A DNA stretch of 29,747 nt from a virus: positions 1-29,747 of IMG/VR virus record IMGVR_UViG_3300000563_000012; one strand, written 5' to 3'. The position numbers and the translations under genes are program-made. Position 1 is the stretch's first letter, and each line of letters starts with the position of its first letter. The notes below the pieces were generated by a model, which did no database searches, was not told the DNA's origin, and saw nothing but the letters and a program-made list of their open reading frames with translations. This document shows, in pieces, positions 4,555-24,592 of this stretch.

Positions 4555-5046
4555 ATGGCAAGAGAAATGATTAGGGGCATTCCTATGGAATTTGAACCCA
4601 AACGAGTAAATAGATTTTTTGCTGAATTCCCTGATGAATTAGGTATTGAAGTTTGGCAAGTTCAAGAATTTAAGAGACCATCATTAAATATTAATAGTGT
4701 TCCAATACAGTATTTAAATCATGAAAATTATGTTGCTGGTAGATATAATTGGGATACAATGAGCATTAGGTTTCTTGACCCGATAGGTCCTTCGACATCA
4801 CAACAACTAATGGAATGGGTTCGTTTACATGCTGAATCACTTACAGGTCGTATGGGATATGCTGCTGGCTATAAGAAGGATTTAAGATTAAAAGCACTTG
4901 ATCCAACGGGAATTGAGGTTGAAAAATGGTCAATTGAGCAAGCTCAAATTGTTAGTATTGATTTTGGTGATAATAATTATGAAGATGATGCATTAACTAA
5001 CATTACATTAGAGATACAACCATTTAGGTGTATACTTAATGTTTAA
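4555..5046 (+). CDS. gp19: Tail tube protein (T4 gp19-like)
   Basis: This protein forms the inner tube through which DNA passes; hexameric rings stack on the baseplate inside the sheath. The length (163 residues) equals that of T4 gp19. Features typical of the tube family are RVNRFFAEFPDELGIEVWQV (18-37), the WDTMSIRFLDPIGPSTSQQL stretch in the middle, and a C-terminal half ending in a beta-rich segment (SIDFGDNNYEDDALTNITLE, then IQPFRCILNV). The fold is related to Hcp and other tube proteins. It sits directly after the sheath and the small charged gene, has its own late-type motif, and is followed by a strong terminator hairpin at 5217-5245. This fits a highly expressed, separately transcribed late gene. 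Confidence 0.93.
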   Translation: MAREMIRGIPMEFEPKRVNRFFAEFPDELGIEVWQVQEFKRPSLNINSVPIQYLNHENYVAGRYNWDTMSIRFLDPIGPSTSQQLMEWVRLHAESLTGRMGYAAGYKKDLRLKALDPTGIEVEKWSIEQAQIVSIDFGDNNYEDDALTNITLEIQPFRCILNV

Positions 5047-5090: not shown

Positions 5091-5442
5091 ATGAAAGATT
5101 ATTTTTTAATCAATAATAGATCTGGTAAGAAAACAAAAAAAATTTGGTTAAAAAAAAATAAACCAGAACTTTATAAAATAATTACAGATTATAACGAAAA
5201 ACATTCGATTCCTGATAAAACACCTTTTAAAGAAAAGGTGTTTTTATTTATCTTTTGTCATATTTAATTTAAAACACATACCAATTTGCCCAGAATGTGG
5301 TTGTAAGAAAAAGTTTAATGGTAATTTAAAAAAGGGTTATAATAAAAATAAAACTGAATTTGAGATTATGAGTGATTTAGGTTATTTACAAATTTATGAT
5401 TGTGGTAACTTAAAATTTCTAAATAAAAATAACAGTATTTAA
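5091..5442 (+). pseudogene. Broken zinc-ribbon protein resembling the ends of phage homing-endonuclease-like proteins
   Basis: Two adjacent frames seem to be pieces of one protein. Frame A (5091-5267, 58 codons) ends PFKEKVFLFIFCHI. Frame B, shifted and open across the break, reads LKHIPICPECGCKKKFNG from 5269 and ends YLQIYDCGNLKFLNK at 5442. A SFKEK-type helix, then a P-C-x-x-C-G zinc knuckle, then a GY-x-x-IYDCGN terminus is a pattern I associate with phage-borne nucleases and homing-endonuclease-like proteins; that link is from memory. Here the two ends are close together with little between them, and a frame change lies near 5262-5268. So the gene looks both shortened and frameshifted. 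The terminator hairpin at 5217-5245 is inside frame A. The last bases overlap the convergent nuclease gene by 4 nt. Each half could also be a small real gene. Confidence 0.45.
5217..5245 (+). terminator. Rho-independent terminator after the tail tube gene
   Basis: A perfect 12-bp stem (AAAACACCTTTT, 5217-5228, with AAAAGGTGTTTT, 5233-5244) closes a 4-nt AAAG loop and ends in a T run. It lies about 170 nt after the tube stop and inside the broken zinc-ribbon frame. It is the most stable hairpin noticed in the window. Confidence 0.75.
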
Positions 5443-6233
5443 TTATTTATTTCATTAGTTCTTTTTTCCATTATTTTTTTTATAAAAAATGAATAATCTT
5501 TTGTTTCAATAATTTCATAATTATTATTTCTATGTGAAAACCAAACAACATAAGACTTACCTAAATTTATATTAATGTGTTTTTTTATTATTTGTTTATA
5601 TAATTCAAGTTGTAATGAATATAAATTCAAATCACAATTTTCTAATATTGATAGTTCGTCTAATAAATGTTTTTTTGGATTGTTATATGTGAATTCTTTA
5701 TTTGTTTTCCAATCATATAACTGAAATTCTTTTGCTTTTACATTATAAAATAACATATCTACCATTCCACCTATCATTGATTCAATATCATAAACTACTA
5801 ATTCAGTTTTTATTGGGATTAGTTTATTATATGAATCATCATAAAATTTATCTACATGTTTTTTTGTTATTTCATATTCTTTTAATATTGGATCAAATCC
5901 AAATTCATTTAAAATTGTTTTTTTGGGATACTCAAAGATTTTATTTAAAAATAAATTTTCGGCATAATCATGTATGATAGAACCTTTTATAGTTCCTTTT
6001 TTATTAATAAAACTCCATGCTCTAAGAATATCTTTTTGTTTTAAATTAAATTCATTTGCTTTATATTTTGACCAATATTCAGAATCAAAATCTTCTTGAT
6101 ATTTATGAATTAGGGTTGTTACTGAAACCAATTCCTTATTATCAACAAAATATTTATGTGGTTTATCATAATATTTTAATTTATTAAAATTTACAAATAA
6201 TTCTGTTGGTATGTTAATATTAGGAATTTCCAT
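5439..6233 (-). CDS. PD-(D/E)XK superfamily nuclease (RecB/Cas4-like)
   Basis: A 264-residue protein with the RecB-type nuclease motif set in order: an N-terminal KYFVDNKELVSVTTLIHKY strand-helix, His88 in GSIIHDYAEN, Glu144 in IKTELVVYD, Asp159 in GGMVDML, and Asp174-x-Lys176 in LYDWKTNK. Together these are the metal-binding and catalytic residues of the PD-(D/E)XK fold, so activity on DNA is expected. No iron-sulphur cysteine cluster is visible, unlike typical Cas4. It is the last gene of the long minus-strand run and lies 22 nt after the hub gene stop. Unlike its structural neighbours it has its own host-type promoter (6239-6269), which suggests early expression and a role in DNA degradation, recombination or processing. 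The ATG at 6233 is well placed. Confidence 0.85.
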   Translation of the reverse strand: MEIPNINIPTELFVNFNKLKYYDKPHKYFVDNKELVSVTTLIHKYQEDFDSEYWSKYKANEFNLKQKDILRAWSFINKKGTIKGSIIHDYAENLFLNKIFEYPKKTILNEFGFDPILKEYEITKKHVDKFYDDSYNKLIPIKTELVVYDIESMIGGMVDMLFYNVKAKEFQLYDWKTNKEFTYNNPKKHLLDELSILENCDLNLYSLQLELYKQIIKKHININLGKSYVVWFSHRNNNYEIIETKDYSFFIKKIMEKRTNEINN

Positions 6234-6238
6234 GAAGA

Positions 6239-6269
6239 CAAAGGTAATAAAGTAATTAATTAATTACAA
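6239..6269 (-). promoter_or_regulatory. Bacteroidota-type host promoter TTG-N20-TACCTTTG before the nuclease gene
   Basis: On the minus strand TTG (6269-6267) is followed after exactly 20 nt by TACCTTTGT (TAnnTTTGY; -7 element 6246-6239). The ATG at 6233 is only 5 nt further on, so the transcript would have a very short leader. The -33/-7 spacing matches the two other full sites in the window. Confidence 0.7.
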
Positions 6270-7143
6270 TATTTTTTTGTAAAATTCTCTCAAAATTAAT
6301 TTTTTCTAAATCTTCAATAATACTTGTTTTATCACTAGGTAATGCCGAATATCCATGAATGTGATTAATTATTGCATTACGTAAAATATTTAATGCTTCA
6401 ACTAAAACATCTCCCCTTGCAACTGGATGACCTTTTTCAAAAATACGATTTCTATCTTCATTATTTAGTTTTGCTGATTTGAATTTTGGTTCACCAGAAT
6501 GTGATATTATACTAATTTTATCACTTAAAATTATTGTATTGCTTTGATATTCAGTTGAATCTATTTTTGGTTCAAATGTTAGACTTATTTGAGCAGGATT
6601 TTTTGTATTTAATTTTAATATATTATTATTTTCATGTTTTCCTGCTCTTATGTTTATTTGATTCTCTTTTAATATAATATCGGTATTAACTCTACCAATT
6701 AATCCAATATCTTCTTTTTCAGGAAAAACATCCTTAGCGTCTGGAAATGTTGATGGTGCTTTATCTGGTTTAGCTAATTTCATATTGGTTGTTGATAATG
6801 CACTATACATAGATTCAAAATCAACTTTATGTAATTGAGATATAACACTCCCCATCCAAAATCTACTTCTTTGTGGATATTGAATGTCTTCAATAAAAAC
6901 TCTAACAATTTCACCTACTTTAGGATATAAATGAAAAAATTTAGGTAATAATGGAAATGCCCAAGGTAGTTCATTATTTGGTGTTTTATTATCAATATCA
7001 GGTAATTTTACCTTTATTCTACCACCATCCTCATCATCAAATACTGAAATTACTTCACCGTAATATATGGTTCTATTAACTTTAAAACCTAAATCAGATT
7101 TAAATGGATTTGATTTTTGTATTAATGGTTTATTATATGACAT
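6256..7143 (-). CDS. Baseplate hub / central spike protein with gp5-type OB fold
   Basis: Residues about 25-101 (TIYYGEVISVFDDEDGGRIK ... PKVGEIVRVFIEDIQYPQRS RFWMGSVI) form the OB-fold found at the start of T4 gp5 and of phage baseplate V/VgrG proteins, which joins the hub to the needle. At 295 residues it is far shorter than T4 gp5 (575). I see no lysozyme domain and no long beta-helix repeats; the C-terminal part is mixed (GHPVARGDVLVEALNILRNA is a helix). So this looks like a spike base without its own peptidoglycan hydrolase. It overlaps the upstream coiled-coil gene by 11 nt and sits within a minus-strand run of baseplate genes. The OB assignment is confident; the exact hub role is inferred. 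Confidence 0.8.
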   Translation of the reverse strand: MSYNKPLIQKSNPFKSDLGFKVNRTIYYGEVISVFDDEDGGRIKVKLPDIDNKTPNNELPWAFPLLPKFFHLYPKVGEIVRVFIEDIQYPQRSRFWMGSVISQLHKVDFESMYSALSTTNMKLAKPDKAPSTFPDAKDVFPEKEDIGLIGRVNTDIILKENQINIRAGKHENNNILKLNTKNPAQISLTFEPKIDSTEYQSNTIILSDKISIISHSGEPKFKSAKLNNEDRNRIFEKGHPVARGDVLVEALNILRNAIINHIHGYSALPSDKTSIIEDLEKINFERILQKNIVIN

Positions 7144-7360
7144 CTCTGTTATTTAATTCTTCAATTATTTTTACGTAATTATTTTCAATTTCATCTAATA
7201 ACGAAATTTTATGGTTAACATCATTAGTAGCTTTTTTCATTTCATCATCTATCTTTATTGTTTTATCAATAATTTCTTTTTTTAATCTTTCATGATTTTT
7301 CTTTGTATCGTTAACCATTTTTAATAGTTGTGTTTCTGTAAATTCATTTAAATTTTCCAT
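7133..7360 (-). CDS. Small coiled-coil protein next to the hub gene
   Basis: A 75-residue protein, nearly all helical and charged, with heptad-like spacing from about residue 5 to 70 (LKMVNDTKKNHERLKKEIID, then MKKATNDVNHKISLLDEIEN). No family is recognised. The 3' end overlaps the hub gene by 11 nt and the start is 8 nt after the upstream stop, so translation is probably coupled to its neighbours. A small assembly factor or structural linker is plausible from position only. Confidence 0.7.
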   Translation of the reverse strand: MENLNEFTETQLLKMVNDTKKNHERLKKEIIDKTIKIDDEMKKATNDVNHKISLLDEIENNYVKIIEELNNRDVI

Positions 7361-7368
7361 AATATATT

Positions 7369-7776
7369 TTATTGAATAACACCATATCCTGTGGTTATTG
7401 TTATTGTTGACCCGAAAACAGATACAGGACCTGCTGCCGAAACACCTGCTGCAGTTAATGTTGTCCCGGGGGGGATTGCTACCGTAATTGCAGCATCTTG
7501 TTGTAGTGCTTTAATAATCTCCTCAACCCTAATTCTTTCCATAATTTCATCAGGATTAACTGCACCTGAAGGTAATGTTCCTACTGGAAGTCCTGCTTCA
7601 CCTTTTCTTGTAATTATTTTTGATGCTATTTTAGTTGCAGATAAACCAGATCGAGTTGGAACACCAACTAAAATAATTGGAGAAGGAATTGATGGTGCAG
7701 TACCAACTGACGATAATTTTAATATTTTATCAAAACCACCAATAATTGAATCTATATTTGTAAAATCAACACTCAT
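7369..7776 (-). CDS. Small Gly/Ala/Ile/Thr-rich protein in the baseplate gene run, function unknown
   Basis: A 135-residue protein, MSVDFTNIDSIIGGF ... ITITTGYGVIQ, without charged clusters. It is rich in G, A, P, I, T and S, with a helix in the middle (DEIMERIRVEEIIKALQQDA) and beta-like ends (AITVAIPPGTTLTAAGVSAA). Its DNA has clearly higher G+C than its neighbours, with a run of seven Gs on the plus strand at Pro-Pro-Gly. An open frame on the plus strand (7391-7780) covers the same span; the minus frame is preferred because it fits the co-directional gene run with 8- and 11-nt gaps and has a more ordinary composition. It could be a spike-tip or membrane-facing baseplate component, but no PAAR motif is evident. 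Confidence 0.7.
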   Translation of the reverse strand: MSVDFTNIDSIIGGFDKILKLSSVGTAPSIPSPIILVGVPTRSGLSATKIASKIITRKGEAGLPVGTLPSGAVNPDEIMERIRVEEIIKALQQDAAITVAIPPGTTLTAAGVSAAGPVSVFGSTITITTGYGVIQ

Positions 7777-7787
7777 GTGAAAAATTT

Positions 7788-7958
7788 TTATTTTTTTAGT
7801 TTATTACAATCAATCCATTTCCAACCCAACAACATTCTTATTAAAAATCTTCTCAAGAAATTTGGTTTTTTTGTAAGACCTAATTGCGTACCATCAATCT
7901 TACCATCAATAAGATAAATCCCACTAATTTTTTTATTTGCTTTATTGTCTACTATCAT
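7788..7958 (-). CDS. Small basic protein (56 residues), function unknown
   Basis: A short open frame with ATG at 7958 and TAA at 7790-7788. Its ATG overlaps the stop of the upstream gene in an ATGA arrangement, a strong sign of translational coupling. The product begins MIVDNKANKKISGIYLIDGK, has a basic helix with aromatic residues (LRRFLIRMLLGWKWIDC) and ends KLKK. The hydrophobic stretch is too short and too charged to be a clear membrane span. It fills the gap between two baseplate-run genes, so it is probably a real gene of the same transcription unit. Confidence 0.7.
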   Translation of the reverse strand: MIVDNKANKKISGIYLIDGKIDGTQLGLTKKPNFLRRFLIRMLLGWKWIDCNKLKK

Positions 7959-9271
7959 ACATCAACTGGTATTAAACTTTTGATTACCCCAATATAGGAG
8001 TTTATTTTTTCCATTATTATTTTTCTTACTGCTGGTTTTAATAATTTCACTAATAATATTAAAATTAATGTATATATATATTCATTTAATAATGACAATA
8101 ATTCTTTTACAATACATTTTACAAAATTCTTAATTTCTTTAATGTCTTCACTAAAATCAGCACTAAAAATTGATTCTCCATCTTCACTATCAAATGCACT
8201 AATAAGACCAAGTATTGCTCTTACTTGTGGTGTTGCTATTAATGAATTAACTAAACTAATACTAATTTCATTAATTATTCTTTGAAAAAAACTATCTTTT
8301 AATGTTTCACTATTTTCTTCATCAACATCATTATCTTCAATTATATCATCAGCAACTTTATTCATACGAGAACTAACATCAAAAGCATCGTTTGTGTTTT
8401 TTATATCATTAATTAATAATGATAATGAATCTAAATCAAATTTCATTGAGGCATCAACACAACCTAAATTAGATTTTAAATTACCATCAAAAATTTGATT
8501 TGCTTTTTCAAACAAACTATTTAATTCATCTTCTTTTAATTCAAAATCTTCTTCATTATTAATTGCCTTTTCTAATAATTTTCTTATTTTTAATTCATTA
8601 AAAATTTTATTTTCAGTTTTATCTTGATTTGATGATATTGTGCCAAACATACTATCCATAACATTTGACATTATTTCTTTTTTATTAATTAATTCAATTC
8701 CATCAATAAATTCACCAATCCAATCACCAATACTTGATGATGATTTAGTTGGTGTTGGTTTAAATGTCATAGTATCATTACTACTATTATATGTCATGTT
8801 TAAAACATTATATGATATAACACTTCCATCATTAACAATTGCTTCACGTGCCTTTTTATCAAAATTATCATTGTCGTCACTATAAATTAAATCACCAGTA
8901 TCTGAATTTGGATCTGTTTTTAATTTATCAGATAAATCAATATTAGATATAGGCATATTAATACCATTATTTATAAAATTATTTGGTAAATTATCACCAG
9001 AATTTTCGTTTATTGTTTGTTTTTTTAAACCATCTTTTAATTTTGGTTCAATATCATCTAAAAAATTAGTAAATAATTCCCCTGTTAATTTACTCAATAC
9101 AGCACTTCCTGCAATAACCTTTAAAATGTCTAATAAAAAAGGAATTATTTCTTTTTTATTATTAATTGAAGGGATTGTGTTATCAGAATTAGGAATTTCG
9201 GTTTGTTGTTGCATTGAAGTTAATGCTCCAATACCACTATGAACCTCTTTTTTACTGTCAATTAAGCTCAT
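7955..9271 (-). CDS. Large acidic structural-type protein with hydrophobic C-terminal helices, function unknown
   Basis: A 438-residue protein that I do not recognise. Residues about 40-75 are a hydrophobic/helical segment (EIIPFLLDILKVIAGSAVLS). The middle is acidic and Asn/Ser-rich with likely loops, and residues 210-330 contain charged helices. The C-terminus has hydrophobic helices (LLSLLNEYIYTLILILLVKL) followed by a basic patch (KPAVRKIIMEKINS). The hydrophobic segment could be a membrane span or a buried bundle. Its start overlaps the upstream stop by 1 nt (TAATG) and its stop overlaps the next gene by 4 nt. A baseplate, hub or membrane-contact role is suggested only by its neighbours. 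Confidence 0.7.
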   Translation of the reverse strand: MSLIDSKKEVHSGIGALTSMQQQTEIPNSDNTIPSINNKKEIIPFLLDILKVIAGSAVLSKLTGELFTNFLDDIEPKLKDGLKKQTINENSGDNLPNNFINNGINMPISNIDLSDKLKTDPNSDTGDLIYSDDNDNFDKKAREAIVNDGSVISYNVLNMTYNSSNDTMTFKPTPTKSSSSIGDWIGEFIDGIELINKKEIMSNVMDSMFGTISSNQDKTENKIFNELKIRKLLEKAINNEEDFELKEDELNSLFEKANQIFDGNLKSNLGCVDASMKFDLDSLSLLINDIKNTNDAFDVSSRMNKVADDIIEDNDVDEENSETLKDSFFQRIINEISISLVNSLIATPQVRAILGLISAFDSEDGESIFSADFSEDIKEIKNFVKCIVKELLSLLNEYIYTLILILLVKLLKPAVRKIIMEKINSYIGVIKSLIPVDV

Positions 9272-9642
9272 TAGTTATTATCTTTTTCAATAGCATCTTT
9301 TGCCATTTGTATTAGTTCGTTTCTTCTTTTTGATGAAATCTCATCATCATCGTTATTGGATTTTGAACTACCTGAAGGATTTTTTTCTATAAAAACAACT
9401 TCTTTCAAATATTTTAAAAGCATGATTTTCTGATCTTGATTTTTTGCTTCAGCATTAATCAATTTTACTATTTGATCTCCCATCGCTTGAATTTCACCAC
9501 CTTCTTTTACTTTAGCTTCCCATTTAGTAAAAAGTCTTGATAACTTTGCTCTTATATTATGTGTATCATTATAAATTTCTTGTAATAATTTATTTACACT
9601 TTCTTCGTTAAATTTTAACGTTTTTCTTTTAGGTCTTGCCAT
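9271..9642 (-). CDS. Small helical protein, function unknown
   Basis: A 123-residue protein with basic N-terminus MARPKRKTLKFNEESVNKLL, amphipathic helices through about residue 90, an Asp/Ser/Asn linker (GSSKSNNDDDE) and a short C-terminal helix. It resembles a small DNA-packaging or assembly factor in size and shape (a small-terminase-like protein is possible), but no signature supports this. It is the first gene after a minus-strand late-type motif (9673-9682), so it probably begins the late transcript that continues through the baseplate genes. It overlaps the next gene by one base. Confidence 0.65.
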   Translation of the reverse strand: MARPKRKTLKFNEESVNKLLQEIYNDTHNIRAKLSRLFTKWEAKVKEGGEIQAMGDQIVKLINAEAKNQDQKIMLLKYLKEVVFIEKNPSGSSKSNNDDDEISSKRRNELIQMAKDAIEKDNN

Positions 9643-9672
9643 AATTATATTATTTATTAAACCTTATTTAAA

Positions 9673-9682
9673 TATAAATACT
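9673..9682 (-). promoter_or_regulatory. Late-promoter-like motif AGTATTTATA on the minus strand
   Basis: The minus strand reads TTTAGTATTTATATTTAAA, ending 30 nt before the ATG at 9642. It lies in the gap after the sigma-factor gene, so it could start a separate late transcript for the genes from 9642 down to the hub. Confidence 0.6.
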
Positions 9683-9707
9683 AAATGTATAAATTATTGA
9701 ATAAATA

Positions 9708-10583
9708 TTATAAAAAATAATCATCTTTTTCTAAAAAATATATTTCTTTAAATGGTTTTATCGCTAATCTAATTTCTTTTGCAGAAAGACCTGTTTGTTC
9801 TTTTAAAAATAATAGTATTTTATTTTTAGCAAATTTATTACTAACCTTTTTTGTGTAATGACCTTTAGGTGTTTCCTCTAAAAATAAAATGTTCCAATTT
9901 TTTAAAATGTTAATAATTGCATCACCTACAATAATTTCATTTAATTTTATTTCATCATCATTATCAATTTTATTTTTTATCTTTTTAATTACTTCGTTAA
10001 TTAAATTTTCGAGTTGTTTTTCATCAACATCTAATTCATATGAATGATTTAAATCTTGCTCAATTTCTTCAATATAATTATCGTATGATAAATTAGTTTT
10101 CTTTTCGTTATAACTTTTTTTACTATGATCTTTATAATAATTTCTAATTATTGTCTGACAATAACTATATGCTTTTGAAAAAAATAATTTATATTCATAA
10201 TAATCATCGTTCTCATTACCTAATCTTAGTTCTTCTAGTTTTTTCTTTGCATCATTTAAACATATAAATCTATGTTTATTTCCCAATTTAATCCATTTAT
10301 CGTTATCAATTTTTTTTCGTTCGATAATATATGGTTTATATTTAACCATATGTTCAATTAAATGTGATAATGCATTTGCTTCAACCTCATCAATATCATA
10401 ATTACCAATATGTATTGGATATCTCCTTAAAATTGATTCTATCATTTTACGAAATGGATCAATCAATAGTTTATTATATATTTTATTCTTTTCTACTGCA
10501 CAATCTGAAGTAATATAAGCAATAACTGCTTGTTCTTCATTTTCAGCAAAATATTGTAAAATTTTTTCATCTTTTTTTTTCAT
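9708..10583 (-). CDS. Phage sigma factor for late transcription (T4 gp55-like, sigma-70 region 2)
   Basis: A sigma subunit redirects the host RNA polymerase to phage promoters. Residues 36-84 (YNKLLIDPFRKMIESILRRY, then IDEVEANALSHLIEHMVKYK) and 137-156 (KAYSYCQTIIRNYYKDHSKK) reproduce the order seen in gp55-type sigma factors: a first core-binding helix pair, then the AFSYF.TI..N.......K helix of region 2 that binds core polymerase and the -10 element. At 291 residues it is longer than T4 gp55 (185), with an insert at about 85-135 and an extra C-terminal part ending in TGLSAKEIRLAIKPFKEIYF, which may be a helix-turn-helix. A matching set of conserved motifs before structural genes supports the assignment. 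It sits mid-way in the minus-strand run, 24 nt after the glycosyltransferase gene. Confidence 0.8.
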   Translation of the reverse strand: MKKKDEKILQYFAENEEQAVIAYITSDCAVEKNKIYNKLLIDPFRKMIESILRRYPIHIGNYDIDEVEANALSHLIEHMVKYKPYIIERKKIDNDKWIKLGNKHRFICLNDAKKKLEELRLGNENDDYYEYKLFFSKAYSYCQTIIRNYYKDHSKKSYNEKKTNLSYDNYIEEIEQDLNHSYELDVDEKQLENLINEVIKKIKNKIDNDDEIKLNEIIVGDAIINILKNWNILFLEETPKGHYTKKVSNKFAKNKILLFLKEQTGLSAKEIRLAIKPFKEIYFLEKDDYFL

Positions 10584-10607
10584 TATTAAATTTAAAATAT
10601 ATAAAAA

Positions 10608-11417
10608 TTATTTATCATCTAATAAAGAAAGATCAATATCTCTATCTTTAGTAAAATTAGATTCTTTATTTGCTGTTTCAAACCAAAACTTTCTTTCTTT
10701 AATTGCCATTGAATTATGATAATGACTAAATAAACTATCCTTTCTTTCAATTAAATGTTTATAACAAATTTTAGGTATTGTCATAATTTTCACACCATTA
10801 TTTAATGCACGTAAAAGAAATTCATACATAAATGTTAATTTAATTTTAGTTTTATACATACCTAATTCAATAAATTTTGATTTATTTATTGCTGCACCTG
10901 ATAATTTAAAATCCGTATATTGTTTTAATCCATTTATATTTAAATATCCCATTTCACCATTTTCACCAACAAATTGTTGTGCCCAAACAGTTTCATTGGT
11001 CATTTTAATTCCTTCATTCTTTTCATTTACCTCAATAATCATTGGCATGAATATATCAACTTTAGTATATGAAGTTATATACTTATCAACATTTTTTAAA
11101 TATGTAGGACTATATTCATCATCAAACTCAAGAACACTAAAAAATTTAGTTTCTACTGATTTAATTGCAAAGTTTATTTGTGATTGATAATCACTATTTT
11201 GAGTATTTACAATGTAAGTAGTATCAACATTTTTTAAATCTTTAATTTCTTTTACAGTATTTTTTACTTTATCTTCGATATTTTGAGGAAAAATTAAAAT
11301 GAGTTTTGGTAAATATTCAATTTCTTTTTGTTTTATTATTGATTCGATTGATTTTATTAAAAAATTATTAATATCATCATTAAAATCATGTATAGGAATT
11401 ATTGTTGTTACATTCAT
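10608..11417 (-). CDS. Family 2-type glycosyltransferase (GT-A fold)
   Basis: A 269-residue protein beginning MNVTTIIPIHDFND, the first strand of a GT-A nucleotide-sugar fold. It has a DxD-like acidic motif at residues 99-101 (LEFDDEYSPTYL) at the expected distance, then an acceptor-side region (FKLSGAAINKSKFIELGMYK). It should transfer a sugar from a nucleotide donor in the cytoplasm; donor and acceptor cannot be read from the sequence. It lies between a GT-B-type gene and the sigma factor in the minus-strand run, so virion-linked or DNA-linked glycosylation is possible. Fold assignment is good; specificity is unknown. Confidence 0.8.
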   Translation of the reverse strand: MNVTTIIPIHDFNDDINNFLIKSIESIIKQKEIEYLPKLILIFPQNIEDKVKNTVKEIKDLKNVDTTYIVNTQNSDYQSQINFAIKSVETKFFSVLEFDDEYSPTYLKNVDKYITSYTKVDIFMPMIIEVNEKNEGIKMTNETVWAQQFVGENGEMGYLNINGLKQYTDFKLSGAAINKSKFIELGMYKTKIKLTFMYEFLLRALNNGVKIMTIPKICYKHLIERKDSLFSHYHNSMAIKERKFWFETANKESNFTKDRDIDLSLLDDK

Positions 11418-11444
11418 AATATATATTATTTTTATATTTTTAAT

Positions 11445-12599
11445 TTATTTTTTTATGTTTTTATTGTTGTCTTGTTCAATAGCAGATTCAAACAATTTTT
11501 TTCTTTGTTCTATATATTCTTCATATATTTTAGTTAATTGTTTTTCACTATTTTTTTGACTATGTTTTGATGCAATTTCTTCCATTGATTTATACACTTC
11601 GGGTGAGATTCCATCATCTAAAAACTTAACTAAAACATCTGCAATTAACACAGGAATGTCATAATAATTATTAGTCCAAACACCACAATTATCTTTTATT
11701 TTAGTAGAATTTCCATCTTTATCTCTTTCTATTATATATTCTGGAATAATATCTGGTTTTAAACAAATTGGTATTGTTCCTGATTTCATACATTCGATTG
11801 CAAATGTTCCAAAACTAGCAATTCTATCTACCCAAACAGCAGCAAAATTATTTTGTAACCTTTTCGCAAAATCCTTCCTACGCATAGGTTGTGGTGGTTT
11901 GCTTTTTGTTAACATAGGATCAAAAGTTACCCAACTATATTGTGGATATTTAGAATAAAATAGTTTTACTATTTTAGATATTTCATTTGGATTTCTACCA
12001 ATAACAGAAATTATTGGTTTTTGAGGTAATTTTGATTTTTCAAAATAATCTGGAATTCCAATATCATATTTTTTTATATTAAATTTATTTAATCCCATAA
12101 AAACATCAACCCACTCAACTAATGATGGTGATGTTGTTAATATATCACGAACATTAAATGTAGACCAATCTGTCCCGGGTATTAAACTATTCATCATATA
12201 ATCAACTGATTGTAATAATCCAATTCTCAAACAAGGCAATTCTTTTGTTTGTTCCATTACGTTTGAAAATACTTCTGGTATAATCATAATATCTTCAGGA
12301 CCTACCGTTAGTTTAGGATCTGACATCGGAATATGTTCGTGCTCAGTTAATTCTTTTTCAACCCATTTAGGTATTTCATAATCTCCCTTTTCTACCAATA
12401 TTTTTACATTATATCCCATTTTCTTTACAACAAACGCATGGAAATATATTTCGTAAATAGATGCAATTGGATTTTCTGAATCAGGAACACAAAATAAAAA
12501 TTTAGATTTTTTATTTTCTATATTATCTAAAGAAAGTTTTATTTTTTCTAAATTTTCATTGTGCTTGTTTTCTTCTTTATTTTCTGTTTTTTTTGTCAT
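11445..12599 (-). CDS. GT-B-type glycosyltransferase (GT4-like)
   Basis: A 384-residue protein. After a charged ~30-residue N-terminus comes a Rossmann-like start (KFLFCVPDSENPIASIYEIY), then a second Rossmann domain from about residue 195 (PIISVIGRNPNEISKIVKLF). The donor-binding signature is at 252-281 (FAAVWVDRIASFGTFAIECM, then KSGTIPICLKP): the acidic E in FAIECMKSGTIP corresponds to the EX(7)E-type nucleotide-sugar site of GT4-like enzymes. It is translationally coupled to the upstream HAD-like gene by a 4-nt ATGA overlap and lies 27 nt before the family 2-type gene. Sugar and acceptor are unknown. Confidence 0.8.
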   Translation of the reverse strand: MTKKTENKEENKHNENLEKIKLSLDNIENKKSKFLFCVPDSENPIASIYEIYFHAFVVKKMGYNVKILVEKGDYEIPKWVEKELTEHEHIPMSDPKLTVGPEDIMIIPEVFSNVMEQTKELPCLRIGLLQSVDYMMNSLIPGTDWSTFNVRDILTTSPSLVEWVDVFMGLNKFNIKKYDIGIPDYFEKSKLPQKPIISVIGRNPNEISKIVKLFYSKYPQYSWVTFDPMLTKSKPPQPMRRKDFAKRLQNNFAAVWVDRIASFGTFAIECMKSGTIPICLKPDIIPEYIIERDKDGNSTKIKDNCGVWTNNYYDIPVLIADVLVKFLDDGISPEVYKSMEEIASKHSQKNSEKQLTKIYEEYIEQRKKLFESAIEQDNNKNIKK

Positions 12600-13345
12600 T
12601 TTTTATTATTTTTATATTTAATTATTTTTTCAAATTCTTTATTATTTATTAAATCCTTTATTTGTAGTATTTCTAAACCATTTGTTTTTATTTTTTCATT
12701 ATAAGGTCTATTTACTTTAATTATCTTTTTTTGAAATGGAGCACCTTTTAATAATAATTCAGGGTCTGTTGTAATTAAAATATCAATTCCTTTCCACATA
12801 TCATTATTATTATTAACAAATTTATATTTTTTAAATCTGCATGTCATTTTACTTAAGAAAAATAATGTGGGTGGTATACTAAACTTATTTTCAACAGATA
12901 ATACAGTAAAATCAACATGATTATCATATTCTAATAAAAAATTATTTACATCTAAATCCATTCCTCTGTACATAACCGTTGGAGATGCATGTAATTCAAA
13001 AAGATAATCTTCATACATAAATCTATTATAAACGTCTTTTGCAGTTAAATTATTTTTTTTTGTTTTTTTAAATAAAAAAATATCTGCTGGTGCTTCACCA
13101 TTTTCATCTTTTTGATAATCTAATGGATTTATATTCTTTGGTATTTCATCAACATCTTTTAATTCTTTTGTTTCTTCAACAATATTATTAAATTTATAAT
13201 GTTTGAAAAAATCATAAACATATGGTTGTTCTGGAATACCTTCATCCCCAAATTCTTGTGAATAAAATCTATCAAATTGTAACCATTTAGCTCTTAATAC
13301 TTCATTAATATCAATCCCTATCCTTTTTTTTCTTCTTAAATTCAT
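12596..13345 (-). CDS. HAD-superfamily-like protein with altered nucleophile motif (DxN)
   Basis: A 249-residue protein starting RKKRIGIDINEVLRAKWLQF. This matches HAD motif I (hhhhDxDGxL) in position and hydrophobicity, but the second acidic residue, normally the general acid, is Asn14 (DIN instead of DID). A later segment, GIDILITTDPELLLKGAPFQ, followed by KKIIKVNRPYNEKI, resembles the C-terminal part of 5'-nucleotidase-like HAD proteins. It overlaps the downstream glycosyltransferase gene by 4 nt and the upstream gene by 35 nt. It may be an inactive or changed-specificity phosphatase linked to nucleotide-sugar or glycan metabolism. The HAD link is by motif only. Confidence 0.6.
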   Translation of the reverse strand: MNLRRKKRIGIDINEVLRAKWLQFDRFYSQEFGDEGIPEQPYVYDFFKHYKFNNIVEETKELKDVDEIPKNINPLDYQKDENGEAPADIFLFKKTKKNNLTAKDVYNRFMYEDYLFELHASPTVMYRGMDLDVNNFLLEYDNHVDFTVLSVENKFSIPPTLFFLSKMTCRFKKYKFVNNNNDMWKGIDILITTDPELLLKGAPFQKKIIKVNRPYNEKIKTNGLEILQIKDLINNKEFEKIIKYKNNKK

Positions 13346-13619
13346 CTTTTTTATTTAAATATTTTATTTGATCTTGAAGTTTTATGTTTAAATCTTCCAT
13401 CAATTTATTATGTTTCTCAATTAAATTTTTTTTACTAATATATTCTGGATTAATACATTCAATACGTGTATCAACACTATTTGTTGGTATTAATATAATT
13501 TCACCAGAAAATGTTTGTGGTATTATCCTACTTGCTATTTTATGAATATAATCACTAATATCTTCAGAACGTATTCCAATAATTCCAATATATATTACAA
13601 ATATTTTATTTTCAGACAT
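13311..13619 (-). CDS. Small protein at the head of the minus-strand run, function unknown
   Basis: A 102-residue protein: a beta-rich start (NKIFVIYIGIIGIRSEDISD), a middle with PTNSVDTRIECINPEYI, and a basic coiled C-terminus ending KKKKKDRD. No family is recognised. It is the first gene of the minus-strand run. Its last 35 nt overlap the start of the HAD-like gene, unusually long for this window, which hints that the two are produced together. No clear late-type motif is seen upstream; a degenerate CGTATTATTATA occurs on the minus strand at about 13660-13675. Confidence 0.65.
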   Translation of the reverse strand: MSENKIFVIYIGIIGIRSEDISDYIHKIASRIIPQTFSGEIILIPTNSVDTRIECINPEYISKKNLIEKHNKLMEDLNIKLQDQIKYLNKKDEFKKKKKDRD

Positions 13620-13767: not shown

Positions 13768-14730
13768 ATGGCTAAGTCAATAAAAAAAGAATCTTTATCA
13801 AAAGAAAATAATAATATTCCAAAAAGAGAATCTTTATCAGATGCTTTAAATAAATATAGTGAGAAAAAAACTAAAACCACAAAAAATGAAGAAAGTGATA
13901 ATGTTGTTAGTTCAAAAATACCTGATTCACCAATAAATTCTAAAAATTTTCATGAAAATGATATTGAAACAACATTAACTAAAGAAACTGATCCAGATTT
14001 AATGATAGCATATGAATCAATAGAACTACCATCAAAAGGTCATTTTTATTCACATGGTATTTCAGAAGTAGATGTTGAATATATGACTTCAAGGGACGAA
14101 GATTTATTAACAACACCTTCATTAATAGAAAATGGTACTGTATTGGATATTTTATTAAAACGTAAAATAAAAACAAAAAATATAGAACCATCAAAATTAC
14201 TTTCTGGAGATAGAAGTGCTATTATTTTATTTTTACGTACATCTAGTTATGGTACTGATTATACTGTTGAAGTAACTGATCCAAGAAATGGTAATGTTTT
14301 TGAATCTGTTGTTGATTTATCTAAATTAAAATATAAAGAAATTACTGAATTACCTGATGAAAATGGTTATTTTAGTGTTGAATTACCAATGCGAAAAAAA
14401 TTAGTAAAATTTAAATTATTAAATGTTGGTGAAGATAAAGAAGTTTTTAATAAATCAGAATCAATTAAAGAAGCTTATGGTGATGAACATAATCAATATA
14501 ATACATTAAAAATAAAATCACAAATAATTTCAATTGATGGAAAAACAGATAAAACTTATATTAGTAAATTTGTTGATGCAATGCCAGCATTAGATTCTTA
14601 TACTATAAGAAGAAAAATTTTAGATGTTAATCCTGATGTTGATATGGAATATGAATTTAAAACAAATGATGGTCATAAATTTAAATCAAGATTAACACTT
14701 GGCATAGATTTTTTTTTCCCCAACACCTAG
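13768..14730 (+). CDS. Baseplate hub / tail assembly protein (T4 gp26-like), 0-frame product
   Basis: A 320-residue protein. The first ~75 residues are charged and low in complexity. Then IELPSKGHFY (85-94), MTSRDEDLLTTPSLIENG (106-123) and LSGDRSAIILFLRTSSYG (145-162) form the pattern I know from gp26-like hub proteins of T4-type phages. The protein ends TLGIDFFFPNT, so the family's usual aromatic C-terminus is present. Its 3' end runs over a nine-T tract and CCCC. Reading on in the -1 frame gives a sensible extension (see 14709-14924). The gene lies immediately upstream of the tape-measure gene, where phages keep their tail-assembly chaperones, and it has its own late-type motif. Family assignment is moderate; it could equally be named a chaperone. 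Confidence 0.75.
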   Translation: MAKSIKKESLSKENNNIPKRESLSDALNKYSEKKTKTTKNEESDNVVSSKIPDSPINSKNFHENDIETTLTKETDPDLMIAYESIELPSKGHFYSHGISEVDVEYMTSRDEDLLTTPSLIENGTVLDILLKRKIKTKNIEPSKLLSGDRSAIILFLRTSSYGTDYTVEVTDPRNGNVFESVVDLSKLKYKEITELPDENGYFSVELPMRKKLVKFKLLNVGEDKEVFNKSESIKEAYGDEHNQYNTLKIKSQIISIDGKTDKTYISKFVDAMPALDSYTIRRKILDVNPDVDMEYEFKTNDGHKFKSRLTLGIDFFFPNT

Positions 14731-14924
14731 CAAGTGATTATAAAAAAATGGTTAATAAAGAAATTTTTATATTAACTAAACATTCTAATTTTCAAGCCGA
14801 TTATATTGAAAAAATACCTGTTTATAAAAGAAGATATTTTTTACATTTATTAGAAAAAGAAATTGAAGAAGTTGAAAAAGAACAAAATAAAGTAAAAAAT
14901 ACACATAAAAAACCAAGAAGATAA
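14709..14924 (+). CDS. Probable -1 frameshift extension of the gp26-like protein (or separate 58-residue ORF from 14748)
   Basis: In the -1 frame relative to the gp26-like gene, translation stays open from the T9 tract to TAA at 14922-14924. Slippage on T TTT TTC (14712-14718) would join residue 317 to 68 further residues: PQHLASDYKKMVNK, then EIFILTKHSNFQADYIEK, then PVYKRRYFLHLLEKE and a basic tail. The residues before the internal ATG (14748) read as ordinary protein, which argues for a fusion of about 385 residues. If the ATG at 14748 is used instead, a 58-residue protein is made, with only A-rich sequence before it. Phage tail-assembly chaperones upstream of tape-measure genes often use exactly this type of -1 frameshift. 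A missing T in the homopolymer (10 Ts in truth) would give the same fusion without recoding. Confidence 0.65.
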   Translation, partial: FFFPQHLASDYKKMVNKEIFILTKHSNFQADYIEKIPVYKRRYFLHLLEKEIEEVEKEQNKVKNTHKKPRR

Positions 14925-14938
14925 TTCTTGGTTTTTTT
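14907..14938 (+). terminator. Rho-independent terminator between the frameshift gene and the tape-measure gene
   Basis: A 9-bp perfect stem, AACCAAGAA (14911-14919) with TTCTTGGTT (14925-14933), is extended by A/T pairs and followed by a T tract to 14938. It includes the stop codon of the -1 frame ORF. The late-type motif of the tape-measure gene starts on the last T. Confidence 0.75.
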
Positions 14939-14968: not shown

Positions 14969-17425
14969 ATGGCAAAAAAAATTACAAGAGAAGATCTTAA
15001 AATAAGAGAAAATTATATTAAGTTATTAGAAGAAGAAAAAAATAATATATCTTCTACATTTAATTTAGAAAAAAGACGTAGTGTTGAATTAGAAATAATT
15101 TCTCAAAGACAAAGAATAATAAATGAATTAATAAAAGAACAAAAAGAAACTGGAAAAGATTATAAAGAAATAATAAAAAATTTAAATAAAGAACAAGAAA
15201 TTTCAAAAAAAAATGAGAAAAAATTAAATAATGAATTAAACACACAAAAAAAAATAAGAACTGATATAAATCGTTATTTAAGAATTGGAATTAGATATTT
15301 ACATGAACAAGATAAAATAATTAAATCTACAATTCTTAGTCTTGGTATGTCTGGTGATAGAGCAGATTTTATGAGACAATCTTTTGAAGATTCTGCTCAA
15401 TATGTTGCTAGATTAGGTGGTAGTTTAAAGGATGTTGCTGCAATAATGTTAGGTTATGCTGATATAACAGGTAGAGCACGTGCGTTATCACAAGAAAATG
15501 TTGAAGCAATTACTGCAATATATAGGGGAACTGGTTTAAGTGTAGAACAAGCAACTAAACTTGCTGCACAATATGAGTTTATGGGTAAAGATGCTAAAGC
15601 TACAATGGATTATGTTCAAGGTGTACTTGATACATCAGAAAGAATGGGAGTAAATACTGAAAAAGTGTTAATTGATGTTTCTAATAATTTTAAAAGATTA
15701 AGTACATTTACTTTTCAAAAAGGTGTTAGGGGATTTGCTGAAATGGCACAAAATGCTGAAAGAACTAGAATTAGTATACAATCTGCTTTAGATGTTGCTG
15801 AACATGTAAGAACACTAGATAATGTAATTAGATTAGGTGCTGAATTACAGGTTATGGGTGGTGAGTTTGCAAAAATGGACCCACTTCACTGGTTATATAC
15901 TGCTCGTAATGAACCAGAAAAACTACAAGAAGAATTATCAAGAATGACAAGAGGAATATATACTCTTCGTCAAACTTCTGAAGGTGCTTTTGAAAAATTT
16001 ATTAGTCCTGCAGATAGAGATAGATTATCACATGTTGCTAAATCACTAGGTATTGCTCAAGATGAAATGTTTCAAGCAGCACAAAGAGGTCTCGAACTTT
16101 CAATGATTGCTGATGATTTAGAAGGCATGGGTTTAACTACAAGAGAAAAAGAATTAGTTGAAGGTGCTGCTCAACTTTCAAGTGAAACTGGAAAAATGTT
16201 TGTTGAAATTGGTGGTGCAACAAAAGCAATTAATGATTTAACAGTAAGACAAGCAAGATCTTTTGCCGAAGAACAAAAATTATTAGAATCAAGAGCTAAA
16301 GAAGCATTAACATTTAATGAAGCTTGGGAAGCAACAATTAATGAATTCAAAAGTATATTATTACCATTATTACGTGATATTAATAGTGCAATTAGATATG
16401 TTAGACCATATGTTGAAAAATTTGCTGATTGGATAGGAGCAATTGATAGTGCATTAGTTAGATGGGTTGCTGTAGGTGCTGGTTTGGTTGGCGGTGCTAT
16501 TGCACTTAAAGGTGCTGCAAGTTTTGTTGCTGCTAAACTAGCTACAGTAAAATTACTTGGTGCTGGTGCTGGTGCTACTGGTGGTGCTGCAGCTACACTT
16601 GCAAGAGGTACTGGTGCTGGTAGAAAGGCTGCTGGTATTGGTCGTGGTGTTGGTCTTGCAGGTGTGGGTGTGGGTATTGCAGGTATTGGTACTGGTGCAG
16701 GCGTAAAAATCGCTGCTGAAGGAATTAGTGAACTTGCAGATGCTATGTCTAGATTAACTCCAGAACAAGGAGAAACTTTACAAAAAATAGGATATACATT
16801 AGCAAGTATGTTTACTGCAACTGTTGCTGTTGGTGTTATTGCTGTTGGTGTTGCAGGAAAAAAAGCTGCTATTGGTTTATTGGCAATTGGTGCTGCTGCA
16901 GTTGGAGTTGGTTTTGGTATTAAATTGGCAAGTGAAGGAGTTGCAAAAATGACAATTGGTATTGGAGAAATGATTGAAAGAAGTAAAGAAGCAGGTCCTG
17001 CTATGTTGCAAATTGGTGCTGGATTAATGGGAATGGCTGGAGCATTTACTGCATTTAATTTAGGTATGACAGGAATGGTAGCATTTAGAGCAATTTTAGG
17101 TAGTATAGCTAAAAGAGCAGATGCTTTAAATCAAGTAGGAAATGCATTTGAAAATATTGCTACTGTAATGAGAGGAAATAAAGAAGATTTTCAAGCAGTT
17201 GAAAATGCTGTTAATAGTATTTCAAATATGAATATCAAAGAAGGTGGTATTTTAAGTGATTTAGTTAATTTATTAAAACATCCATTAAAAGTAGAATTTG
17301 CTAATGATTCAATACAATTAAGAAATAATATTACATTAGAATTAGATAATGACGTACTAATGAATAAAATTATTGATGCTAATGTAATTGTAAGAAAAAT
17401 TGAAGATAGAAGAATCAATAAATAA
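14969..17425 (+). CDS. Tail tape measure protein
   Basis: An 818-residue protein whose length would set tail length and which is ejected ahead of the DNA. Residues 1-110 are strongly charged coiled coil (KLLEEEKNNISSTF, then NLNKEQEISKKNEKKLNNEL). Residues 110-470 are a helical domain with LSLGMSGDRADFMRQSFEDS and FNEAWEATINEFKSILLPLL, which is typical of tape-measure proteins. Residues 490-710 are Gly/Ala-rich hydrophobic segments (VGAGLVGGAIALKGAASFVA, VAVGVIAVGVAGKKAAIGLL), candidate membrane-inserting regions. It is 818 residues long (T4 gp29: 590). It stands after the gp26-like/frameshift gene and before the large baseplate protein. The local G+C rise comes from the Gly/Ala codons. Identity is confident. 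Confidence 0.92.
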   Translation: MAKKITREDLKIRENYIKLLEEEKNNISSTFNLEKRRSVELEIISQRQRIINELIKEQKETGKDYKEIIKNLNKEQEISKKNEKKLNNELNTQKKIRTDINRYLRIGIRYLHEQDKIIKSTILSLGMSGDRADFMRQSFEDSAQYVARLGGSLKDVAAIMLGYADITGRARALSQENVEAITAIYRGTGLSVEQATKLAAQYEFMGKDAKATMDYVQGVLDTSERMGVNTEKVLIDVSNNFKRLSTFTFQKGVRGFAEMAQNAERTRISIQSALDVAEHVRTLDNVIRLGAELQVMGGEFAKMDPLHWLYTARNEPEKLQEELSRMTRGIYTLRQTSEGAFEKFISPADRDRLSHVAKSLGIAQDEMFQAAQRGLELSMIADDLEGMGLTTREKELVEGAAQLSSETGKMFVEIGGATKAINDLTVRQARSFAEEQKLLESRAKEALTFNEAWEATINEFKSILLPLLRDINSAIRYVRPYVEKFADWIGAIDSALVRWVAVGAGLVGGAIALKGAASFVAAKLATVKLLGAGAGATGGAAATLARGTGAGRKAAGIGRGVGLAGVGVGIAGIGTGAGVKIAAEGISELADAMSRLTPEQGETLQKIGYTLASMFTATVAVGVIAVGVAGKKAAIGLLAIGAAAVGVGFGIKLASEGVAKMTIGIGEMIERSKEAGPAMLQIGAGLMGMAGAFTAFNLGMTGMVAFRAILGSIAKRADALNQVGNAFENIATVMRGNKEDFQAVENAVNSISNMNIKEGGILSDLVNLLKHPLKVEFANDSIQLRNNITLELDNDVLMNKIIDANVIVRKIEDRRINK

Positions 17426-22933: not shown

Positions 22934-24592
22934 ATGAAAAGAAATAAACTCGACATTAAAAAGGTTATTAAAAAGAAAATTGAAAATAATTATAAAAATA
23001 ATAATTACATAAATAAAAGAAAAGTGTCAAAAAAAAATGATGAGAGAAGAATGGGTGTTGGTAATGTAATTAAAAATAATGTAATTAAAAATAATGTAAT
23101 TAAAAATAATGTAATTAAAAATAATGTAATTAAAAATAATGTAAATTATTCTAGAATTACAAAATCACCTAAAATTGGAATATTAATTGTAAATTACAAC
23201 AATTTAGAATATACTAAAAATTGTGTTAACGACATAATTAATCAAATTAATCAAAATTTTATTTTATATGTTGTTGATCAAAATTCTAATGAAAAAGACA
23301 CTGATAAATATTTAAATAATTTAGATGGTAAATATGATAATATTAAAATAGTTAAAAACAATGAAAATGTTCCATTAAATTGGGTTTGGAATAATTTTTA
23401 TGAAATTTGTGATTTAGAGTATTTATGTTTTTTAAATAACGACATTAGACTTACTAATAATTTTATTGATGACACACACAGCACATTTAAATTAGAACCT
23501 TCGGTGGGTGCTATTATACACGTTACAAATAATTTAAATTATATTAAAACGGAACATAAATTAAAATATGAAATATTAACACCTCCCTTATATCAAGGAT
23601 GGGATTTTACATTAAAGAGATGTTGTTATAAAAAAATTCCAACAAATTTAAAAATTTTTGGTGGTGATGATTATCTTTTTGCTAATTTAATAAATAATAA
23701 TAATAATGTTGCATTAATATATAGTTCACCCATTATACATTATAAAGAAAGAACTAGGATAAAAATAACTAATATAAGTGATATACAAAAAAACGATGCA
23801 AAAAACTATTGGGATGAAATAAAAAAAGATAAATTAAAACAAATTGGTTCAACAGTTCCAACAAAATGTAATAAATATCCTTCAAATAACATTAAACTAT
23901 TACAAAACAAAAATTGTATATATACTGCGAGTATTGGTGATTATGATATACTTCATACATCTAATTGTGGAAAACTGGATAATTGGGATTATATATGTTT
24001 TACTGATAATAAAAATTTAAAATCTGATTTTTGGAAAATTATTTATGTTGAAAATCAACATAATAATTCATTAAATAATATTAAATTAGCGAGGTATTAT
24101 AAAACAAATCCATTTAAATTTTTATCATCATATGAAAATATTATTTGGAAAGATTCAAGAATTTCAATAAATTCTAATTTAAATAATTACTTATTATTAT
24201 TGAAGGATAATGATATGTTTTTTATGAAACACTATTGTTGTAATAGTATATTAATAGAATTTGATAATGTATTATCAGGTCGTTTAGAAACAGAAGAAAT
24301 GATAAATAAAATAAAATTAAAATATTGTAATGATAATTATCATTATGATAATGGATTGTTTGCAACTGGTATTTTAATGTATAAAAATAATATTAGAGTT
24401 CGTAAATTATTTAAAAACTGGTGGAATGAAATTAATGAAAATTCTCATAGAGACCAATTATCATTAAATTATGTTCTTTTTAAAAACCCTAATATTAAAT
24501 ACAGTTCTGATAAACAATTAAAAATATTATCACATAGTAATATGTCGTATTTTAAAGTAAATAATAGAACTAAAAAAAGATATGTATGTTAA
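22934..24592 (+). CDS. Two-domain glycosyltransferase: family 2-type domain plus DUF616/TOD1-type domain, with VIKNN repeat
   Basis: A 552-residue protein in three parts. Residues 1-75 are very basic and Asn-rich and contain five tandem VIKNN units. Residues about 80-300 are a family 2 GT-A domain (KIGILIVNYNNLEYTKNCVN; CFLNNDIRL as the acidic motif; GGDDYLFANLI). From about 328 (IYTASIGDYDILHTSNC), with DYICFTDN, NNIKLARYYKTNPFKFL, NIIWKDSRISI and HRDQLSLNYVLFK, it has the layout of the DUF616/TOD1-MUCI70 glycosyltransferase-like family. It starts 5 nt after the previous gene and overlaps the next by 7 nt. A second dual-enzyme protein next to the first suggests an ordered glycan-building pathway. 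Confidence 0.8.
   Translation: MKRNKLDIKKVIKKKIENNYKNNNYINKRKVSKKNDERRMGVGNVIKNNVIKNNVIKNNVIKNNVIKNNVNYSRITKSPKIGILIVNYNNLEYTKNCVNDIINQINQNFILYVVDQNSNEKDTDKYLNNLDGKYDNIKIVKNNENVPLNWVWNNFYEICDLEYLCFLNNDIRLTNNFIDDTHSTFKLEPSVGAIIHVTNNLNYIKTEHKLKYEILTPPLYQGWDFTLKRCCYKKIPTNLKIFGGDDYLFANLINNNNNVALIYSSPIIHYKERTRIKITNISDIQKNDAKNYWDEIKKDKLKQIGSTVPTKCNKYPSNNIKLLQNKNCIYTASIGDYDILHTSNCGKLDNWDYICFTDNKNLKSDFWKIIYVENQHNNSLNNIKLARYYKTNPFKFLSSYENIIWKDSRISINSNLNNYLLLLKDNDMFFMKHYCCNSILIEFDNVLSGRLETEEMINKIKLKYCNDNYHYDNGLFATGILMYKNNIRVRKLFKNWWNEINENSHRDQLSLNYVLFKNPNIKYSSDKQLKILSHSNMSYFKVNNRTKKRYVC
23066..23140 (+). repeat. 15-bp tandem repeat, five perfect copies, in the glycosyltransferase N-terminus
   Basis: The unit GTAATTAAAAATAAT occurs five times in a row with no mismatch (75 bp). 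The period is five codons and each unit encodes Val-Ile-Lys-Asn-Asn in frame. Copy number is likely to vary by slippage without breaking the frame. Confidence 0.95.

Follow-up and report, generated by a model that had tools for sequence, protein, structure and literature searches.

The window, by which we mean the whole stretch of 29,747 nucleotides analysed here, carries a gp26-like open reading frame (ORF), an open -1 frame that continues across its stop codon, and a large ORF that is probably the tape-measure gene (Table 1). The gp26-like ORF ends a few codons past a run of nine Ts, as the initial annotation had noted: the tract occupies positions 14709-14717, the 3' end of the ORF reads GAT TTT TTT TTC CCC AAC ACC TAG, and the stop follows three codons after the slip site. 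The heptamer T TTT TTC (14712-14718), named there as slippery, is indeed in the phase of the zero frame. A second heptamer, T TTT TTT (14709-14715), overlaps it in the same phase, and slippage on either would yield an identical protein. No stop interrupts the -1 frame between 14685 and a TAA at 14922-14924, and the fusion of the short form (TAC-N) with the extension measures 385 aa, in agreement with the first estimate. The heptamer by itself is not evidence of frameshifting, because the window has a GC content of 25% and nine in-frame T TTT TTT/C heptamers occur across its ORFs.

The ORF downstream begins 44 nt past the extension and shows a weak match (BLASTP, E 1e-4) to the annotated tape measure of Flavobacterium phage immuto. 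Its position and this match suggest that it is the tape-measure gene, so the location upstream of such a gene, which had been assumed from the beginning, is probable. In other parts of the window, the tail tube gene (4555-5046) is separated from the chaperone by a minus-strand gene block (5439-13619), which includes a baseplate-like ORF (6256-7143; phrog_430, E 0.001). A perfect 15-base tandem repeat of 5.5 copies (23062-23144) codes for an NVIKN repeat near the start of the ORF at 22934-24592.

Table 1. Features of the proposed frameshift locus, with the evidence for each
Feature	Coordinates	Strand	Evidence or remark
gp26-like zero-frame ORF, short form TAC-N	13768..14730	+	320 aa; PF12322, phrog_150, AlphaFold2 pLDDT 85
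Slip site with two overlapping in-phase heptamers	14709..14718	+	from sequence
-1 frame extension, TAC-C domain	14718..14924	+	pN/pS 0.18; AlphaFold2 three-helix model; weak phrog_634 match
Zero-frame stop TAG	14728..14730	+	position common to all clade members
First ATG of the -1 frame	14748..14750	+	ATG in 17/18 clade members, ATA in L029
Strong hairpin whose loop contains the stop of the extension; Ts follow	14907..14937	+	z -4.7
818-aa ORF, probable tape-measure protein	14969..17425	+	position; BLASTP to annotated tape measure

The two parts of the predicted fusion protein

The first ORF matches the Pfam family of the T4 base plate protein gp26 (PF12322) with an E value of 4.5e-8 and 33.5 bits, compared to a curated cut-off of 24.5, and the baseplate hub family phrog_150 with an E value of 3e-8. 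The latter family is also matched by all 18 members of alignment A1. By these profile matches, the ORF belongs to the T4 gp26 family (PF12322/phrog_150), and the original gp26-like assignment is upheld. A search of BFVD with the AlphaFold2 model retrieved predicted T4-type baseplate hub proteins of other phages, with E values down to 5e-25 and the SP-15 baseplate hub subunit among the fold matches. The best match in the PDB was the HK97 tail assembly chaperone 2ob9, which was not significant (E 1.0, prob 0.28).

The extension is modelled as a compact domain of three helices (pLDDT 87), and helix 1 begins at residue 5, right past the slip site and nine residues ahead of the first Met. Sequence matches to the gp51 family were weak. 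In the window, phrog_634 (gp51) was matched at E 0.005, and matches at E<=1, also weak, were found in 5 of 21 members. Comparison with the C-terminus of gp51 by hhalign gave a weak match for extensions of the group of relatives that continue in the +1 frame (E 3.8e-4, probability 36%) and no match for extensions of the window's -1 clade alone; a further comparison with the same C-terminus was likewise weak (E 0.036). The extension alone found no match in phage records by tblastn.

Conservation of the junction and coding in the -1 frame

Relatives were collected by a viral-contig search (13) and by an alignment search (80 more). The window's own clade consists of 18 distinct sequences, and the others in it are 57-63% identical to the window. 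GAT precedes the tract in 18/18, and the tract itself has nine Ts in 17 members and eight in one (L009). The zero-frame stop stands three codons past the slip site in every member, as TAG in 17 and TAA in L030. The -1 extension, which had been noted as open in the window, is open in 18/18, with no -1 stop in any. Over the 38 codons past the zero-frame stop, the -1 frame had a mean pN/pS of 0.18 among the 18 members, compared to 0.96 and 2.27 for the zero and +1 frames, respectively, and variability was highest at the third codon positions of the -1 frame. From the sequence comparisons, purifying selection is seen to act on the extension in the -1 frame only, both frames are judged to be coding, and the junction and the zero-frame stop are conserved. 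The split-frame arrangement is, on this evidence, real and more than chance, and with tract, stop, and extension kept in 18/18 members, these data favour the programmed -1 frameshift that was proposed at the outset.

Sequencing or assembly error would mean that the true tract has ten Ts and that the two frames form a single fused ORF. Homopolymers are prone to such errors. However, 18 distinct sequences from separate contigs all have the split frame with a conserved zero-frame stop, and no member's tract fuses the frames. The clade-wide junction and the -1-frame coding signal thus rule out an error, short of an identical mistake in all of these assemblies, and we give it a negligible probability.

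The same two observations make it very unlikely that the extension is a free-standing gene whose translation begins with the ATG at 14748, for instance through reinitiation following termination at the TAG that lies 17 nt before it. An ATG is found at that site in most of the clade, and in one distant relative (L055) AAGGA and an ATG stand ahead of the C domain. Against a separate start, L029 has ATA at this position and the window has no Shine-Dalgarno-like sequence ahead of its ATG. Furthermore, the stretch from the zero-frame stop to the first ATG has the character of coding sequence (its codons are mostly GCN GGN GAN TAY AAA AAR), and from the slip site up to the ATG synonymous changes keep the amino acids, which bears out the early impression that the extension is protein-like before its first ATG. 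The first Met also falls within predicted helix 1, which begins at the slip site. A conserved start of an independent gene, named in the initial annotation as one way in which its proposal could fail, is therefore not what the clade shows.

Synonymous conservation of the T tract was considered as an independent proof. The probability is 1.8e-6 if the 18 rows are taken as independent, and it is not relied on, because the value is just 0.03-0.13 on the 6-9 most permissive loci.

A further explanation is transcriptional slippage, in which RNA polymerase adds a base on the nine-T tract, so that some mRNAs would be translated into the fusion without any change of frame; the same two proteins would be made and put to the same use. 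Runs of 9 A or T suffice for this in bacteria (PMC5009743), nine Ts are retained in all but one clade member, and just one other T-run of 9 is present on a coding strand in the window. Nevertheless, the tract of L009 has only eight Ts, the runs of 4-7 Ts of distant relatives (TTC TTT TGG, TTT TTT TGG, and six in PA5oct) are too short, and the two perfect ribosomal heptamers also fit the tract. Ribosomal slippage is favoured, because the architecture is preserved in family members whose tracts have 4-7 Ts. Since the nine-T run of the window is long enough for RNA polymerase slippage, the transcriptional route keeps a small but appreciable probability.

The initial annotation also suggested that a stimulatory RNA structure should be sought downstream of the slip site. 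No such structure was found in the window (z-scores of -0.4 to -0.7); two relatives reached -2.0, and the RNAalifold consensus downstream of the slip site contained almost no covariation. Stimulatory structures are not present at every known frameshift site. A candidate ACTTAGCG/CGCTAAGT stem seen in several relatives was rejected, as it is broken in the window and its covariation was not above that of shuffled sequences. A different element is the strong hairpin around the stop of the extension. Hairpins of differing sequence occur at or just past this stop in nearly all clade members, L006 being the exception. The window's hairpin is terminator-like, and it is possible that it acts as a terminator or attenuator between TAC-C and the tape-measure gene. 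The T4 late promoter TATAAATA was not enriched.

Proposed mechanism and relation to known chaperones

The gene of the window very probably encodes a tail assembly chaperone made in two forms, TAC-N (short) and TAC-NC (long, by frameshifting), and would be the counterpart of lambda G/GT. In the proposed mechanism, the majority of ribosomes would read on to the TAG at 14728 and release the 320-residue TAC-N. A minority would move into the -1 frame on the T tract, with two tRNA-Phe re-pairing from TTT TTC (or TTT TTT) to TTT TTT, and these ribosomes would make the 385-residue TAC-NC with its three-helix C-terminal domain. If the analogy with lambda gpG/gpGT holds, the tape-measure protein would be bound by TAC-N in many copies and by TAC-NC in few, and the C domain may recruit tail-tube subunits. 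We infer slippage by the ribosome rather than RNA polymerase, and likewise the short-to-long ratio and the chaperone function.

Phage lambda gpG/gpGT resembles the window in that a short chaperone and a long one made by a -1 frameshift are encoded immediately before the tape measure. The likeness is one of architecture, the window's TAC-N is larger, and the slippery sequence of lambda differs from that of the window. The lambda tape measure is bound by many copies of the short chaperone and few of the long, and it is the long form that brings in tube subunits (PMC5009743).

In T4, gene 26 belongs to the PF12322 family like the ORF of the window, and gp51 resembles the window's long form, as it combines a gp26-like N part with a C-terminal domain. 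Unlike in the window, these T4 forms are separate genes, 26 and 51, which lie on opposite strands and involve no frameshift. Frameshifting is reportedly conserved in several T4-like groups, with T4 using genes 26 and 51, according to the abstract of Vladimirov, Gautam and Davidson 2022 (Virology 566:9-15). The N part of T4 gp51 is homologous to gp26 (E 2e-6), which agrees with the published short/long chaperone pair as presented in the PRFect paper, where Vladimirov et al. are cited (PMC10885494).

The implied novelty of a link between T4-type gp26 and frameshifted chaperones does not hold, because this link was published in 2022 by Vladimirov et al., as cited in PMC10885494 and PMC12846349. 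The phage Adele paper (PMC12846349) cites them for poly-T -1 signals in the TAC-N genes of T4-like phages. As far as these citing papers describe them, such T4-like systems share with the window a gp26-type TAC-N, a poly-T slip site near its 3' end, a C domain in another frame, and a location upstream of the tape measure; the window's clade differs in that it is a further, uncultured group. The TAC locus of Vandenendeviridae and Andersonviridae (phage Adele, PMC12846349) is similar in arrangement, with a -1 shift at the end of TAC-N, which takes place at a conserved GTTTTT, and a C domain before the tape measure, although it is found in other phage families. With our analysis, the pairing of a short chaperone with a long one produced by frameshifting reaches a large set of uncultured T4-gp26-like tails.

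Shift direction in the wider family

Alignment of the extension with relatives, which had been recommended for the -1 reading, recovered homologous extensions in a shifted frame behind the same FF junction. Ten divergent phage records (L014-L023) each have a gp26-like ORF that ends at an FF or FL junction, past which an open stretch continues in another frame, namely +1 in LR756508, immuto, Mel-JY01, GXN1, SP-15, and LIS04, and -1 in XacN1, RAS14, PA5oct, and LR756511. A frameshift is marked in none of the annotated records among these, and the long form is absent from the public annotations of, for example, SP-15, immuto, Mel-JY01, XacN1, and PA5oct. Within a census of 100 rows, the continuation was +1 in 74 and -1 in 24, and the extension was not recovered in 2 (L076 and L084), whose contigs end early. 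The +1 rows include L014-L016, L018, L019, L021, and most of L032-L105, and their commonest sites are TTT TTT TGG CCT (39) and TTT TTT TAC CCT (11). A -2 shift would give the same frame as +1, but the TTC TTT TGG variants fit +1 better. The short/long architecture is near-universal in this gp26-like family.

The extensions of the window's -1 clade and of the +1 group are homologous (hhalign 98%, E 2.4e-13), and it is for these two sets that homology of the C domain across shift directions has been shown. Probably, a single homologous chaperone family with one conserved Phe-Phe junction is present, at which the window's clade and some jumbo phages shift by -1 and most relatives by +1 (or -2), each joining a C-terminal domain. 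A -1/+1 mixture within one homologous family was not found described in the literature, in which Vladimirov et al. 2022 are represented through the papers that cite them. A +1 shift at the tail chaperone has been proposed for the haloarchaeal myovirus HSTV-2 (PMC5009743), and is not new in itself. With both -1 and +1 in use at one homologous site, the family provides a natural comparison of the factors that determine which way a programmed frameshift goes.

In a quick tree, the -1 clade branched from within the +1 group. By AU tests, neither a single -1 clade (p 0.45) nor a grouping of the core +1 rows into one clade (p 0.79) was rejected, and in the latter case the constrained tree scored higher. 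Multiple independent switches between -1 and +1 are not proposed; only the coexistence of both modes is claimed, because neither constraint was rejected. In L097 (about 2720-2740), the extension lies in the -1 frame while that of its relatives is +1, which may be an indel or an error. Longer linkers were seen in L055 (about 2745-2800) and L094 (about 2735-2790), where the C domain is ~20 codons further downstream than in relatives, and the C domain of L055, with its AAGGA and ATG, may be started separately.
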